Below, one piece after another: positions 19,824-51,996 of a stretch of 64,000 nt of DNA. A program made the translations under genes and the position numbers. Origin of the DNA: Kovacikia minuta CCNUW1. Lineage in GTDB: Bacteria > Cyanobacteriota > Cyanobacteriia > Leptolyngbyales > Leptolyngbyaceae. The stretch is taken from the NCBI RefSeq assembly GCF_020091585.1, contig NZ_CP083582.1:1798001-1862000 (forward strand). The letters run 5' to 3'. Under the pieces are notes generated by a model that saw only the letters and a list, made by a program, of their open reading frames with translations, ran no database searches and had not been told where the DNA came from. Position 1 is the stretch's first letter. Each line of letters begins with the position of its first letter.

Positions 19824-19925
19824 CAGTCACCAGTCACCAGTCACCAGTGGACAGTGGACAGTGAAAAACTGACACCTACCACCTACCACCTACCACCTTT
19901 TATCCTTTATCCTTCAGCCTTTATC
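19824..19925. repeat. Short tandem heptamer repeats
   Basis: Runs of CAGTCAC, ACAGTGG, CACCTAC and CCTTTAT units fill the gap between the alpha-2-macroglobulin gene and livH. Such heptamer runs (STRR type) are typical of cyanobacterial intergenic DNA and recur throughout the window. Confidence 0.7.
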
Positions 19926-43025: not shown

Positions 43026-44529
43026 ATGCTTGCAACAGCCCCTTCTCCTGATTTACCTGAATTAGCCGAGCTACGGTCTGGACTGCCCAACATCTGCGGT
43101 TGGGAGGCAGAAATTAGGGCGGTGGTGAATCACAATGAGCCAGTATTCTTGCCTGAAACCAATCTTCGTTCGGAGAATATTACGGCAGGGTTTGCCTGTG
43201 CCTTGCACATGCACCAGCCAACCATTCCAGCAGGTGCTAATGGGGCGTTGATTTGTAACTTGCAGTACATGTTTGAGCATCCGGGGGAAGGGGACAACCA
43301 CAATGCAGATGGGTTTACCTGGTGTTATTCCCGCATGGGAGATTTTATTCCCGACCTGGTGGGGAATGGTTGTAATCCCCGGATCATGCTCGACTATTCG
43401 GGTAATTTGTTGTGGGGATTGCGCCAGATGGGACGCGATGATGTGCTAGACCGGCTCAAACGGATTACCTGCGATCGCCACTACCAGCCCTACGTGGAAT
43501 GGTTGGGGACAATGTGGAGTCATGCGGTTGTTCCCTCAACCCCAATTCCTGACCTCAAACTCCATATCCAGGCGTGGCAGCACCATTTTGCTGCCATCTT
43601 TGGGTACGATGCCCTCCGCCGGGTTAAGGGCTTTTCCCCACCAGAAATGCACCTGCCCAACCACCCAGATACGCTGTATGAGTACATCAAAGCGCTGAAA
43701 GAGTGTGGCTACCGCTGGCTGCTGGTGCAGGAACACTCGGTGGAGTGTGTCGATGGTTCCAGTCTGCCCCACGACCAGAAATATATTCCCAATCGCCTGA
43801 TTGCCCATAATTCTAGGGGCGAAACCATCAGCATTACTGCCCTAATCAAAACCCAGGGATCGGATACAAAATTGGTGGCACAGATGCAGCCCTACCATGA
43901 GGCAAAAGGGCGAAGCAAACAACCATTGGGCGATCGCCTGGTGCCTGCCTGTGTGACTCAAATTGCCGATGGAGAAAATGGCGGTGTCATGATGAACGAG
44001 TTCCCCCGCGATTTTCCGCCTGTCTGGTATGGCATTCAAGCCAACGGTCGGGGAACTACAGGCGTTGTTGGGGTGAATGGTACCGAGTACATCGAACTTT
44101 TAGAAGCAACGGGAGTTAGCCCAAACGACTATCCTCCGATTCAGGCGGTTCATCCAGCATAGAATCTGGCAGGTGGTAAACCCAGAACAGCCGACCCCAG
44201 AGGCAGTTGAAGCAGCGATCGCCCAGCTTAAAACAACCGACCCCCACTTTAGTATGGAGGGTGCCTCCTGGACGAATGATCTCAGTTGGGTGCGGGGCTA
44301 TGAGAATGTCTTGGAACCCATGAATCAACTCAGTGCCGCTTTCCACCAGAAATACGATCCCCTGGTTCAACAAGATCCCGCCGTTACCCAACACTCCGTC
44401 TATCAGGAAGCTCTGTTATATAACCTGCTCCTTCAAACCAGTTGTTTCCGATACTGGGGCCAGGGAGCCTGGACTGATTATGCCCGCGAAATTTATCGGA
44501 GGGGGGAAGCGGCGATCGGTAAAGGATAG
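43026..44529 (+). CDS. GH57 family glycoside hydrolase (frameshifted)
   Basis: A GH57-like alpha-glucan-active enzyme of about 500 residues after removing one C of CC at 44154-44155. The first frame ends in IQAVHPA at 44162 and the second continues HRIWQVVNPEQPTPEAVEAA to 44529. GH57 features seen: FACALHMHQPTIPAGANGAL (the HMHQP motif is diagnostic), GFSPPEMHLPNHPD with the Glu in the place of the nucleophile, and MMNEFPRDFPP. GH57 enzymes include amylopullulanases, branching enzymes and 4-alpha-glucanotransferases; the exact activity is unknown. The stop codon lies in a GGTAAAGGATAG heptamer unit. Close to glgA in opposite direction. Confidence 0.85.
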
Positions 44530-46254: not shown

Positions 46255-49200
46255 TTAATCATCCAAATTTGGAAAATTGGTAGGGGGAGGCGGAGGAGGC
46301 TGGGAACGGGTTGAGGAGGTTGGGTGAACTTCCTCATAACCATCTAGATCATCCGCTTTGCTCAGTTGTTCCAGGATCGCTTTTTCCTGCTCCGTAATCT
46401 CAAACGGAACCTCGGAATCTGCCCCTGCTTCACTAAACAAATCATTCAAGTCTTCATTGAAAGGGGTAATTTCCGCGTGTGTTTGATCAAATACGCTGCT
46501 TAAGTCGAAATCTGTGGAATTAGCTGGGTCTAACTCAGGAGTAATTTCCTCCACAATCAGGATTTCTTCAATACTTTTGGTTTCTCCAAAAGCATCTAAA
46601 TTGAAGTCCATTGCATCCGTTGGTTCGTCCTGAAACAATGCTTCGACCTCCGGTGCAATTTCCCCGGAGAATTCCTGGTCTAGAATTGCCGCCCATTTCG
46701 TTTCGGCGGAATGGGTAGAGTCTGGTTCAAAGAGGGCACTGGTATCTAGGGCAGCAGTTTCAAACGTGGTTCCATCCCCGCCGGAATCGAGTTTAACTTC
46801 AGTTAACGGAGTCTCTGGTTCTGCATCAAATAGAACATTGATGTCCAGAGAAGAAGCTTCAGCTTCAGTTTCTTGGGATACAGGATCAAATTTGACCTCA
46901 GGCAGCGGAGACGCTTGCTCTAGCTCAGACAGAACATTGGTATCGAGGGAAGCAGCCTCAGAATCGATTGCATTAGCGGTAGGGTCAGCTTGAGCTTCGT
47001 CCAGCAAAAATTCAGGTTCTTGCTCAAAGAGGTCATTGGTGTCCAAGGAAAAGACTTCGAACGGAATTTCCTCCCCTTCAGACCCAAATTTGACCTCAGC
47101 CAGCGGAGTCTCTGGTTCTGTCCCAAACAGCTCATCGATCTCCAGGGAAGTGGCTTCCAGGGTAGCCTCACCAACTTCAGACTCAAGGTTGACCTCAGCC
47201 AACGAAGTTTCTGGTTCTGCTTCAAACAAACCTGTGGTATCCAGGGAAGTGGCTTCGGAATCAGTTTCATTGCTGCCCAAATCCAATTCGGCGTCAGTCA
47301 ATGAAAGTTCGGGTTCTTGCTCAAAGAGGTCATTGGTGTCCAGAGAAAAGACTTCGAACGGGATTTCCTCCCCTTCAGACTCAAATTTGACCTCAGCCAG
47401 AGGAGTCTCTGGTTCTGCCTCAAACAGCTCATCGATCTCCAGGGAAGTGGCTTCCAGGGTAGCCTCACCAACTTCAGACTCAAGGTTGACCTCAGCCAAC
47501 GAAGTTTCTGGTTCTGCTTCAAACAAACCTGTGGTATCCAGGGAAGCGACTTCGGAATCAGTTTCATTGCTGCCCAAATCCAATTCGGATTCAGTCAATG
47601 AAAGTTCGGGTTCTTGCTCAAAGAGGTCATTGGTGTCCAGAGAAGAGACTTCGAATGGGATTTCCTCCCCTTCAGACTCAAATTTGACCTCAGCCAGTGG
47701 AGTCTCTGGTTCTGCCTCAAACAGCTCATCGATCTCCAGGGAAGTGGCTTCCAGGGTAGCCTCACCAACTTCAGACTCAAGGTTGACCTCAGCCAACGAA
47801 GTTTCTGGTTCTGCTTCAAACAAAGCGTTGGCATCCAGGGAAGTGGCTTCAGAATCAGTTTCATTGCTGCCCAAATCCAATTCGGATTCAGTCAATGAAA
47901 GTTCGGGTTCTTGCTCAAAGAGGTCGTTGGTGTCCAGAGAAAAGACTTCGAACGGGATTTCCTCCCCTTCAGACTCAAATTTGACCTCAGGCCAGTGGAG
48001 TTTCTGGTTCTGCCTCAAACAGCTCATCGATCTCCAGGGAAGTGGCTTCCAGGGTAGCCTCACCAACTTCAGACTCAAGGTTGACCTCAGCCAACGAAGT
48101 TTCTGGTTCTGCTTCAAACAAACCTGTGGTATCCAGGGAAGCGACTTCGGAATCAGTTTCATTGCTGCCCAAATCCAATTCGGCGTCAGTCAATGAAAGT
48201 TCGGGTTCTTGCTCAAAGAGGTCGTTGGTGTCCAGAGAAGAGACTTCGAACGGGATTTCCTCCCCTTCAGACTCAAATTTGACCTCAGCCAGCGGAGTCT
48301 CTGGTTCTGCCTCAAACAGCTCATCGATTTCCAGGGAAGTGGCTTCAGAATCAGTTTCATTGCTGCCCGAATCAAATTCGGCTTCAGCTTCAGTCAATGA
48401 AAGTTCGGGTTCTTGCTCGAAGAGTTCTTGCTCAAAGAGGTCATTGGTGTCTAAGGAGGAGACTTCAAAGGTGCTATCTCCAGGCACATCTTCAAATCCA
48501 AAATCGGCTGGAATTTCTGGTTCGTCTGGAAAGTTAAGTGTTTGGGAAGCGCTTTCAGGTGACGGGGACAATTCTTCGCTACCGGGTACTGTGAGTTCAG
48601 TGAGCGCATCCTCTACTTCCATCAGGTCAGTCAATTCGCTATCTGTAACCGAATTGCCAGCAGTGTTACTGTCGATCGCTTCAGTTTCGTCAATTTGTTC
48701 TGAAAACAACTCCTCAGGCACGAGGAGGGGAACGTCCACAATAATCTCCTCGGTCATTTCTGCAAATAGACCCTCAGGGCTTTCTGCCGCAGACACTTCT
48801 ACTGAGGAAATTTCTGTGATCAGGGATGCTTCGCTGAAAAGTATGGTTTCCGCAGAAGGTCCGCCATCGCTTACTTCAGGAACCGCTTCAAATAAGGTTT
48901 CAGGTTCCTCTGCCAAAGGAGTGTTGTCATCGCCAACAAAACTGCTATTAAGTTCCGCTAATGGCAGGTCTGTAAATAGCAGCTCAGGTTCCACTGGGGA
49001 ACTGGCCTCATGAGAAAATAAGGCTTCAGAGAGTGGCTCTGAACTGGGGGCTGCGATCGTTTCAGCCGTGGGAACCTCAGACGTATCTACAAATGGGATC
49101 GCCTCATCCGGCACCGAATCGGTTGGGATTAACCACCCATCGGTTGGTTCTGCAATCACTTCTACCACCTTCTCTGCGCCAAAAGCAGGCGAAGCATGCG

Positions 49201-50200
49201 GGGGAAGAGTAATCTCACCCATGTCCGCCAATGTTTCTGGAGGGTCAACTATTTTAGATTTGATGGATTCGGGTTGGCGGATCGGTTCACTACTTCGAAA
49301 CTGTTTTCTGACATAGGTTGGTTTGGGTTCGGGTGGTTTGAACAATCCTTTCCAGGCATTCGTGATGCCAGAAAAAATCCCGCCTGTCTTTCCTGTCAAA
49401 TTTGCGATCGCATCATTTGATGCTCCCTGCTTCACCTCGGAAACCGTTTGTTTCACTTCGGTTTCGGCTTGCGGAATTGCTGCTTCAACAGTCTCTACAA
49501 CTGCTTCCGTCAGATCCGGAGCCTTTTCAGCGATGACCTCAAAAGATTTTGACTTATTTTCAAATACGGCAGTTTCAGCCAACCGCTCTTGAGGAGGGTT
49601 GTCCTCTGGCAATGAAATTTCCTCAACGACAGGGATAGTCTCCTCAACCCCCGTCTCCTCAAACTCCGTCTCAACGGCTGTGTCCAATAGTGCTTCCCGG
49701 CGAGCTGAGGCAAAATCAGCAGGAGTCAACGGGACATAGGGTTCATCCACAGGAACCCCGGCAGGCTTTTCTTGAGATTTAGTGACTGTTGTTGCCAACC
49801 CCTGGGCCTGGGTTTTTAGCTTTTCAAACAAAGGAGCAGCTTGTTCCGTTAGCCTGGTAAACGTTTCAGGTTTGGATAAATTTGCAAATGTTTCTCTCAG
49901 TTCTTCAAAATTGGGGATCGCTGTTTGTTGATCAGCAGGAGCCGTCTGACGGCGCAGAAAAAAGGTCTGCCAACCTAACCATCCCAGAAGCGCAACGCTT
50001 GCTGTTTGCCCCAGCAACACCCCTCCAGTAATCCGTCCAGCGCAAACCCACAAAACCAATGCGTAGAACAGCCCAATTCCGCTCCAGATAAAATCATTTT
50101 TACGATGAACTTCTGGGAAGAAAAAGGCAGCTACATAAAGGGCAAAACTGCCCAAACCAACCACCAGTGCCAGGATGTATGCCAGCATGTGCCGCTCCAT
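46255..50200 (-). CDS. ycf66: Giant Ycf66 family protein with acidic repeat tail (frameshifted)
   Basis: About 1314 residues after removing one G of GG at 47990-47991, where every other repeat copy reads CTCAGCCAG and this one CTCAGGCCAG. The first 85 residues are the Ycf66 domain: MLAYILALVVGLGSFALYVA, FFFPEVHRKNDFIWSGIG and three hydrophobic helices. Ycf66 is found in cyanobacteria and some plastids; its function is unclear. Ordinary members are far shorter (about 100 to 300 residues). Here a 600-residue acidic, Ser/Pro/Glu-rich region follows, then about 17 units of a 33-residue repeat (46720-48460). The tail ends in Pro-rich residues. Start at 50200 or 50188 (MLAYILA). The tail is very acidic and probably cytoplasmic. 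Confidence 0.8.
46720..48460 (-). repeat. Hierarchical 33/99-residue repeat array in ycf66
   Basis: At DNA level nearly identical 297-bp blocks follow each other (the CAGAACCAGAGACTCC site recurs at about 47100, 47396, 47694, 47992 and 48288). Each block codes for three related 33-residue units beginning SLDTNDLFEQEPE, SLDTTGLFEAEPE and SLEIDELFEAEPE. Copies in the middle are almost identical, those at the 3' end are diverged, as expected from recent unequal exchange inside an older array. Confidence 0.9.
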
Positions 50201-50550
50201 GAATGCCTGAGAACTACCTATAACTCTACTCCGCCAGAGAACGATGAGTTTTAAGTTTTGAGTGGATATATTAAGAAACTCAAACCTCGTCTTTAACTCC
50301 TGGCTCTCTCTAATCTGCCCTCGATTTTCTATTTGCTATCAGGGGGAGGGGAAGGGGATTCTTTGCTCGTTCCCGTTGCTTTGACAGGTAACACCCACCA
50401 GCCCCAACGGCAAAACTTTAGGATATGATTCGGATTACCAGGTCACATACGCCACAGCTTAATCTTATTTTCCAGGCGAACTTAAGGAGATCGGGCTACC
50501 CTGAAGGGAAAGAAGACAGCCCGGCACTTGCAGAGTTCTCAGGAAATCCT
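50201..50550. other. Intergenic region between ycf66 and gnd
   Basis: 350 bp between divergent genes, with a TTTTAAGTTTTGAG heptamer pair near 50250. The frame of gnd is open through much of it (from 50425) but this part has no family similarity. Promoters of both genes must lie here; no motif was assigned. Confidence 0.45.
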
Positions 50551-51996
50551 ATGGCACAAAGCTTTGGTGTGATTGGTCTTGCTGTAATGGGGGAAAACCT
50601 GGCGCTTAACGTTGAGCGAAACGGGTTCCCTATTGCGGTCTACAACCGCAGTCGTGAGAAAACCGATACCTTTATGGCAACACGGGCAACCGGAAAAAAT
50701 GTCGTCGCCGCCTACACCCTGGAGGAATTTGTTGCGGCTTTGGAGCGTCCCCGTAAGATTTTGATTATGGTGAAAGCGGGTGCTCCGGTTGATGCGACAA
50801 TTCAGCAACTTAAACCCCTTCTGGATGAAGGGGATATTTTGATTGACGGTGGAAACTCCTTATTTAAGGACACCGCCCGTCGTGCAGAAGAACTGGAGTC
50901 TGCCAAGTTTACCTTCATTGGGATGGGGGTGAGCGGTGGAGAAGAAGGGGCGCTCAATGGTCCCAGTCTGATGCCCGGTGGAACCAAGCAGGCCTATGAC
51001 TTTCTGGAGCCGATTTTGACGAAGATTGCGGCTCAGGTAGATGATGGTCCCTGTGTTACGTATATTGGTCCGGGTGGCGCTGGGCACTACGTCAAGATGG
51101 TGCATAACGGCATTGAATACGGTGATATGCAATTGATTGCAGAAGCCTATGACCTGCTTAAGAACGTACTCGGGTTGAATGCGCAGCAGTTGCATGAGGT
51201 GTTTGCCGAGTGGAACACTACGGACGAACTCAATTCCTATTTGATCGAAATTACGGCAGATGTGTTCAAGGTGTCCGATCCCGATAGCGGGTTGCCGCTT
51301 GTGGATGTAATCAAAGATGCTGCTGGGCAGAAGGGCACTGGGCGCTGGACTGTGGACGATGCCCTGGAAATTGGGGTGGCAATTCCGACGATTATTGCAG
51401 CGGTGACTGCTCGCATCATGTCTTCTTATAAACAGGAGCGGGTGGAAGCGGCGAAACAGATAACCGGTCCCAGCGCAACTTTTGATGGGGATGTGAAAGC
51501 GTTTATCCCCAAGATTCGGGATGCTTTGTATTGCTCAAAAATGTGTTCCTACGCTCAAGGAATGGCATTGTTGAGTAAGGCATCGGAATTGTACGGCTAT
51601 GACCTTAACCTGGGTGAATGTGCCCGGATCTGGAAAGGGGGGTGTATCATCCGGGCAGGCTTCCTGAACAAAATTAAGCATGCGTTTGATGAAAATCCTG
51701 GTTTGCCAAATCTGCTGCTGGCACCAGAGTTTAAACAAACCATTCTGGATCGACAGGCAGCCTGGCGAGAGGTGGTGGCGACGGCAGCACAACTGGGGAT
51801 TCCGGTTCCAGCCTTTAGTGCATCGTTGGATTATTTTGACAGCTACCGCCGCGATCGGTTGCCTCAAAACCTGACCCAGGCACAGCGTGATTACTTCGGT
51901 GCCCATACCTACGAGCGCACGGATAAACCTGGTACTTTCCATACGGATTGGATTCATACCGTAGATCAGGAACCCGAAGCGGTTTTAGCAAAATGA
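50551..51996 (+). CDS. gnd: 6-phosphogluconate dehydrogenase (decarboxylating)
   Basis: A 481-residue enzyme of the oxidative pentose phosphate pathway converting 6-phosphogluconate and NADP+ to ribulose 5-phosphate, CO2 and NADPH; in cyanobacteria this is the main NADPH source in the dark. The N-terminal NADP domain begins [18 protein letters not shown]; the signature [21 protein letters not shown] and substrate-site [20 protein letters not shown] are intact, with Lys and His in the active site. The length is standard. The start at 50551 follows AGGA and matches the family; the frame is open upstream to 50425 without similarity. Single gene. Confidence 0.97.

Follow-up and report, generated by a model that had tools for sequence, protein, structure and literature searches.

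Ycf66 counts among the conserved proteins of unknown function (PMC3999925), and in ferns the plastid gene has been lost at least four times (PMC3098776), so some plastids can do without it. As judged by titles and the opening of abstracts, no functional study of Ycf66 was found in the literature searched. In Synechocystis, the gene is presumably slr0503. The proteins fall into two types. Ordinary type-A members from Leptolyngbyaceae and Nostocales feature a strongly conserved membrane domain (Ycf66_N), a length of 209–630 residues, and a tail without any array of LF motifs, and their genes mostly stand head-to-head with gnd. Most type-A proteins of Nostocales end in a stretch of the HPPSPELVEAA type, as read by eye. 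Type-B members also carry Ycf66_N, but their tails differ; for instance, the type-B protein of Kovacikia minuta CCNUW1 has 260 residues and an arginine-rich tail with a net charge of 0 and no array. The disordered C-terminal tail of RNase E presents short linear docking motifs for a multienzyme complex (PMC4435900, PMC11964227). The tail reported here resembles it by analogy only, and homology is not claimed.

The stretch of DNA analysed here (the window) comprises 64,000 nucleotides of Kovacikia minuta CCNUW1 and contains a type-A Ycf66 gene with a single frame break (46255..50200, minus strand, as are all parts of the gene below). Reading through the break yields 1314 residues in which the sole stop is the terminal one; homologue starts align to an ATG four codons downstream (MLAY), giving a length of 1310. 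The upstream open reading frame (50200-47987) supplies the first 737 codons and carries Ycf66_N (PF07444) at its residues 8-83 (E 4.2e-31), with 107.4 bits against a curated cut-off of 22.3 and the whole profile matched (1-76 of 76). This membrane domain lies at 49952..50179, corresponding to the whole-genome match at 1847952-1848179, and was also modelled with AlphaFold. It is followed by a linker motif, EPYVPLTPADFASARR (49697..49744), identified by pattern scan and alignment, whose Y/F-VPL pattern occurs in 10 of 41 proteins scanned, the window's included. A conserved basic motif, PTYVRKQFR, was located by pattern scan at 49295..49321; YVRK(Q/E/D)(F/Y) or a close form is present in 32 of 33 same-family proteins, again counting the window. 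The basic motif YVRKxxR is likewise multiplied in some lineages, occurring four times in one relative and twice in each of three others. Downstream, the tail consists of an acidic part without period but with scattered LF-x-E (48458..49210, motif counts against shuffles), the repeat array (46654..48457), and a C-terminal acidic part that is proline-rich at its end (46258..46653, from the translation). In a tree, the protein joins 39 type-A rows, apart from five type-B rows, with support of 100/100. A third, weaker Ycf66_N match in the same genome (C1:3978063-3978299) lies in an open frame of 97 residues. The window protein is an enlarged form within a known family, and an intact parallel exists in a named species.

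The array begins with one irregular unit (residues 582-621), which holds a 15-bp duplication detected by TRF (LFEQELFEQE, 48409..48439), followed by 17 units of 33 residues (residues 622-1182, window ~48337 to 46654), of which 13 are regular and four diverged. The first 13 follow a clean order of three types, forming a triplet of 99 residues (297 bp). In DNA, units of the same type are 93–100% identical and units of different types 57–72%, whereas the last four are 38–73% identical to the remaining units; one of these lacks LF (LSELEQ) and the final one is degenerate. TRF delimits a higher-order core of 297 bp x 4.5 copies with 95% matches (47007..48346) and also gives a period of 99 bp, with 12.8 copies at 63% matches. 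In the autocorrelation of the tail, peaks fall at 99, 198, 66, and 33. Chance is excluded as the source of this periodic array, and the near-identical blocks support a recent block duplication. Hence the long acidic repeat tail on Ycf66_N, described in the initial annotation as about 17 units of 33 residues in blocks of three, is confirmed by Pfam, TRF, and unit alignment alike, and the array had been placed correctly to about 70 bases. Elsewhere in the window, 7-bp units form several short arrays (e.g. AAGGATG x 7.4), at 19824, 29006, 40544, 42797, 60702, and 60830; they are presumably the heptameric repeats known in cyanobacteria.

Both the frame break and the size of the array call for a judgement on the assembly (GCF_020091585.1; 3 contigs, 8.56 Mb). 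The break is an extra base at 47990..47991 (GG on the plus strand, CC in the gene), revealed by comparison of unit copies: the affected copy reads CTGGCCTGAGG, whereas the other four regular units of its type read CTGGCTGAGG. The extra base creates the TGA that ends the upstream frame, beyond which the next frame is uninterrupted as far as 46255. Read by eye, the window has five further genes with an apparent change of frame mid-sequence, at ~6710 (GAF/MCP), 25535 (metallophosphatase), 42080 (glycogen synthase), 44160, and 59730 (glycosyltransferase). Pfam agrees in part for the split pieces (Metallophos 2-90 of 191; Glyco_transf_5 from position 27). The gene at 44160, presumably GH57-like, is the one that was compared with relatives; its C-terminal piece sits in a frame of 141 residues, against frames of 495-523 residues in seven of seven relatives searched, and neither piece matches a Pfam family at 1e-4. 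The assembly therefore looks indel-prone, which supports undoing the extra base and counsels distrust of other 'split' genes of this genome. Near 47990 an assembly error is the most likely explanation. A genuine break, whether from a pseudogene, phase variation or programmed +1 frameshifting at GCC-TGA, is very improbable: the TGA stands directly at the break, where a +1 shift would bring the frame back, but neither the four sister copies nor the two long relatives described below have a break, and the same 64 kb hold the other apparent frame changes. It is more improbable still that the size of the array is an assembly artefact. The assembly carries indels and the size rests on the assembled sequence; against this, the copies differ by point changes and a similar-size array occurs in a relative with a hybrid assembly. 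The array is probably real, since a protein of this design is found intact in a related cyanobacterium from a hot spring.

The two relatives are Leptothermofonsia sichuanensis E412 and its genus-mate HOT.MB2.61 (Leptolyngbyaceae cyanobacterium). The E412 chromosome (6,426,061 bp) was assembled from ONT and Illumina reads (PMC8997340), and Kovacikia minuta groups with E412 by 16S (PMC12497795). Their Ycf66 genes are single intact frames of 1396 and 913 codons, respectively, each with Ycf66_N and an acidic LF tail, so that domain and repeats belong to one gene; the possibility of two separate genes, raised in the initial annotation, is thereby answered, and its undoing of one inserted base, giving a protein of about 1314 residues, is supported as well. 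The E412 protein shares with the window Ycf66_N, the linker and YVRKQFR motifs, an acidic tail whose roughly 18 tandem LF/SF units follow a triplet order, and gnd head-to-head. It differs in having units of 29/30 residues instead of 33, a block of 88 residues (264 bp, TRF 93%) with units missing in places instead of 99, the core LFQESSE, and an intact frame. HOT.MB2.61 has the same domains, an acidic tail, and LFQE motifs, but its 913 residues carry them irregularly, without a strong period (best autocorrelation 0.14).

What the tails have in common is the core D-hydrophobic-x-x-L-F-E/Q. Across 16 window and 18 E412 units, respectively, position -4 is D in 11 and E in 5 versus D in 14 and N in 4; position -3 is T or I in 15 versus V, I or M in 15; position 0 is L in 16 versus L in 13 and S in 5; position +1 is F in 15 and 18; position +2 is E in 14 versus Q in 18; and position +6 is E in 15 and 18. 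Over 583 residues of HOT.MB2.61, the pattern [IVMLT]..[LF]F[EQ] occurs seven times against 0.29 expected in shuffles, a test that is not blind because the pattern was chosen after all three long proteins, this one included, had been seen. No enrichment is seen beyond the array of the window (1 observed against 0.16 in shuffles) or that of E412 (1 and 0 against 0.08 each). The looser LF.[ED] is enriched in the window flanks (48458..49210 and the C-terminal tail; 6 against 0.49) but not in the E412 flanks (1 against 0.61). Among 117 other family proteins (24,168 residues), [IVMLT]..[LF]F[EQ] occurs only four times; such near absence argues against a family-wide function of the motif. The proteins of the window and E412 are proposed as a tandem LF-motif Ycf66 variant, defined by three or more tandem units of D-hydrophobic-x-x-LF-E/Q; HOT.MB2.61 has the motif without a tandem period.

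The 117 proteins also bear out the view that the family is normally small: nearly all are type A and all measure 209-630 residues, with four of them being second readings of a counted record, one containing masked letters, and one running off its contig. They derive from 40 stretches out of 58 relatives, with one Ycf66, nearly always type A, read from each, and from 80 named loci, the best 80 of 169 relatives. Open frames above 700 among the best ~150 matches belong to E412 (1405), HOT.MB2.61 (923), and the window (782, broken), and the same three alone exceed 700 in the 58 relatives. The window unit was found in one of 388 genomes of the class, its own, with no match in the 387 others at E 0.001, and a search of that one genome at E values up to 10 turned up no second site; nor did the repeat match plasmids, PDB sequences (E 1), or NCBIfam (0.01). 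The E412 unit was found in two of 58 genomes, E412 itself and, weakly, HOT.MB2.61 (E 3.4e-4). Pfam weakly linked the tail to Sarcoglycan_1 (E 0.022; 14.5 bits, where the cut-off is 32.5), which was taken as chance. Of two regular expressions for an ancestral C-terminal motif, one gave zero matches and the other hit 10 of 41 and 63 of 80 proteins; no argument was built on a loss of this motif.

Three points go beyond the initial annotation: the E412 array, a conserved gnd neighbour, and the absence of the family from Gloeobacter. The gene gnd, encoding 6-phosphogluconate dehydrogenase (50425..51996, plus strand; Pfam 6PGD, E 9.3e-132), diverges from ycf66, and the same arrangement is seen at 93 of 115 distinct type-A loci, in 91 of them within 1 kb; the other 22 have no gnd within the stretch examined. 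These loci are mostly from Leptolyngbyaceae and Nostocales and were not drawn at random, 80 (before duplicate removal) having been chosen for likeness to the window. The intergenic region (window 50200-50425) may hold common regulation, and a literature search returned no paper combining ycf66 with 6-phosphogluconate dehydrogenase. Ycf66_N was found in 379 of the 388 genomes of the class. The nine without it are all six listed genomes of family f14, including Gloeobacter violaceus and G. kilaueensis (G047, G079), one genome of family f33 (G122, presumably a thylakoid-less Anthocerotibacter), and G239 (listed complete) and G298 (82% complete). Weak matches occur in G131, also of family f33 (E 3.5e-4), and in G092 (1.7e-5). 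Gloeobacter violaceus and G. kilaueensis are without thylakoids (PMC3806779); the pattern of absence fits a thylakoid role, as a single phylogenetic contrast.

The origin of the long tails was approached through trees and substitution patterns. HOT.MB2.61 and E412 are sisters in both the Ycf66 tree (99/94) and the gnd tree (99/95). Grouping the three long tails as one clade is rejected by neither (p-AU 0.393 and 0.167, respectively), but the gnd tree places the window outside, with the three genomes grouped in 2% of bootstrap trees, and thus leans against a single origin. The Ycf66 tree included five of six type-B rows and left out seven long-branched or doubtful ones (G006, G039, G042, G046, G051, G055, G057); a value of 75/74 for one group of long tails in a first tree was set aside, as two type-B rows had been wrongly translated. 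Since HOT.MB2.61 has no tandem period, the higher-order repeat of E412 would most simply have arisen after the split from HOT.MB2.61, separately from that of the window. Between adjacent units, pN/pS in the coding frame is 0.64 (window) and 0.54 (E412), the lowest of the three sense frames in both arrays, the other two giving 0.80-0.92 in the window and 0.93-1.02 in E412. For same-type copies of E412, compared in sets of 7, 3, and 3 (exact duplicates and one outlying copy excluded), the coding-frame values are 0.34, 0.43, and 0.25. In the window's own same-type blocks, where changes are few, the selection signal is weak (0.55, against 0.58 in one antisense frame).

With regard to physical properties, the tail from residue 331 has a net charge of -267 over 984 residues (D+E 28%, K+R 1%) and falls in the disordered region of the charge-hydropathy plot; about 27–28% acidic and 1% basic residues are found in all three long tails. 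The AlphaFold model of the membrane domain contains three helices at residues 2-23, 30-49, and 56-82 counted from MLAY, with ten-residue pLDDT means of 68-82 and an overall pTM of 0.32 (moderate confidence). A fold search with it found nothing at an E value of 0.001 or below. A single-sequence model of the array was not used as structure (mean pLDDT 45.5). The stretch FF(F/L)PE(V/I)HRKNDFIWSG is kept in all 24 aligned proteins, which were chosen for likeness; more distant members, such as G055, depart from it. Positively charged flanks of membrane helices lie on the cytoplasmic side (the positive-inside rule), which would put HRKND and LRR, and hence the tail, in the cytoplasm.

We consider that this type-A Ycf66 tail may be a membrane-tethered, disordered, multivalent docking array, with a probability of roughly 0.45. 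The gene, its domain, the array, and the motif shared with the relatives are observed; topology, disorder, thylakoid location, and docking are what we infer. Three membrane helices would anchor the protein, probably in the thylakoid, with the disordered acidic tail facing the cytoplasm. In this lineage, in-frame tandem duplication would have lengthened the tail, initially by the 33-residue unit and subsequently by the block of three. Each unit would offer D-hydrophobic-x-x-L-F-E/Q, followed by acidic residues and a second hydrophobic patch (e.g. V-N-L-E), and the tail could thereby concentrate a putative soluble partner at the membrane via many weak contacts. This proposal draws on the intact genes of the same design in E412 and HOT.MB2.61, the motif core common to two arrays of unlike unit length, its recurrence at irregular spacing in HOT.MB2.61 (7 against 0.29), the pN/pS of 0.25-0.43 among same-type E412 copies, a charge that places the tail on the disordered side, and the lack of a match to the unit elsewhere in its own genome. 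The initial annotation had likewise suggested a multivalent binding scaffold, arguing from regular LF spacing. The scaffold is plausible and better supported than the alternatives below, and that overall interpretation is partly supported: the LF motif is conserved, but the regularity of its spacing (33; 29/30; irregular) is not, which favours motif docking over a ruler.

Recombination alone could have amplified the array, and this counts against docking, as do the choice of pattern after the proteins had been seen, its lack of enrichment beyond the two arrays, its near absence from other tails, and the weak selection signal in the window's own blocks. A possible, though somewhat doubtful, alternative is a polyanionic brush in which bulk charge and length matter for membrane spacing, cation binding or repelling proteins and the motif is incidental. 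The common acidic and basic content of the three long tails would suit such a brush, as would the variation in unit length and spacing among them; however, bulk charge needs no L-F at a fixed place, and the LF core is retained amid differing surroundings and even where it is irregularly placed, in HOT.MB2.61. That a tolerated disordered tail simply expanded neutrally, through replication slippage or unequal recombination, and has no function of its own is rather unlikely. Near-identical blocks do indicate recent duplication and the other relatives read manage with shorter tails, but the frame has been kept over a tail of ~1000 residues in E412 and, bar one base, in the window, and the low pN/pS of E412 same-type copies also speaks against neutrality.

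The docking reading can be extended to a broader statement, namely that Leptolyngbyaceae made a near-universal cyanobacterial thylakoid protein into a membrane-anchored multivalent scaffold, with two lineages separately amplifying the same docking motif, each as a three-unit higher-order repeat. This is rather improbable. If true, the result would be a condensate or enzyme hub tethered to a bacterial membrane, with a possible link to the oxidative pentose phosphate pathway via the conserved gnd pair. A natural variant with ~17 motif copies would be a ready bait for a partner search. Moreover, the pairing with gnd and the absence from thylakoid-less Gloeobacter offer two further testable leads on the role of Ycf66.
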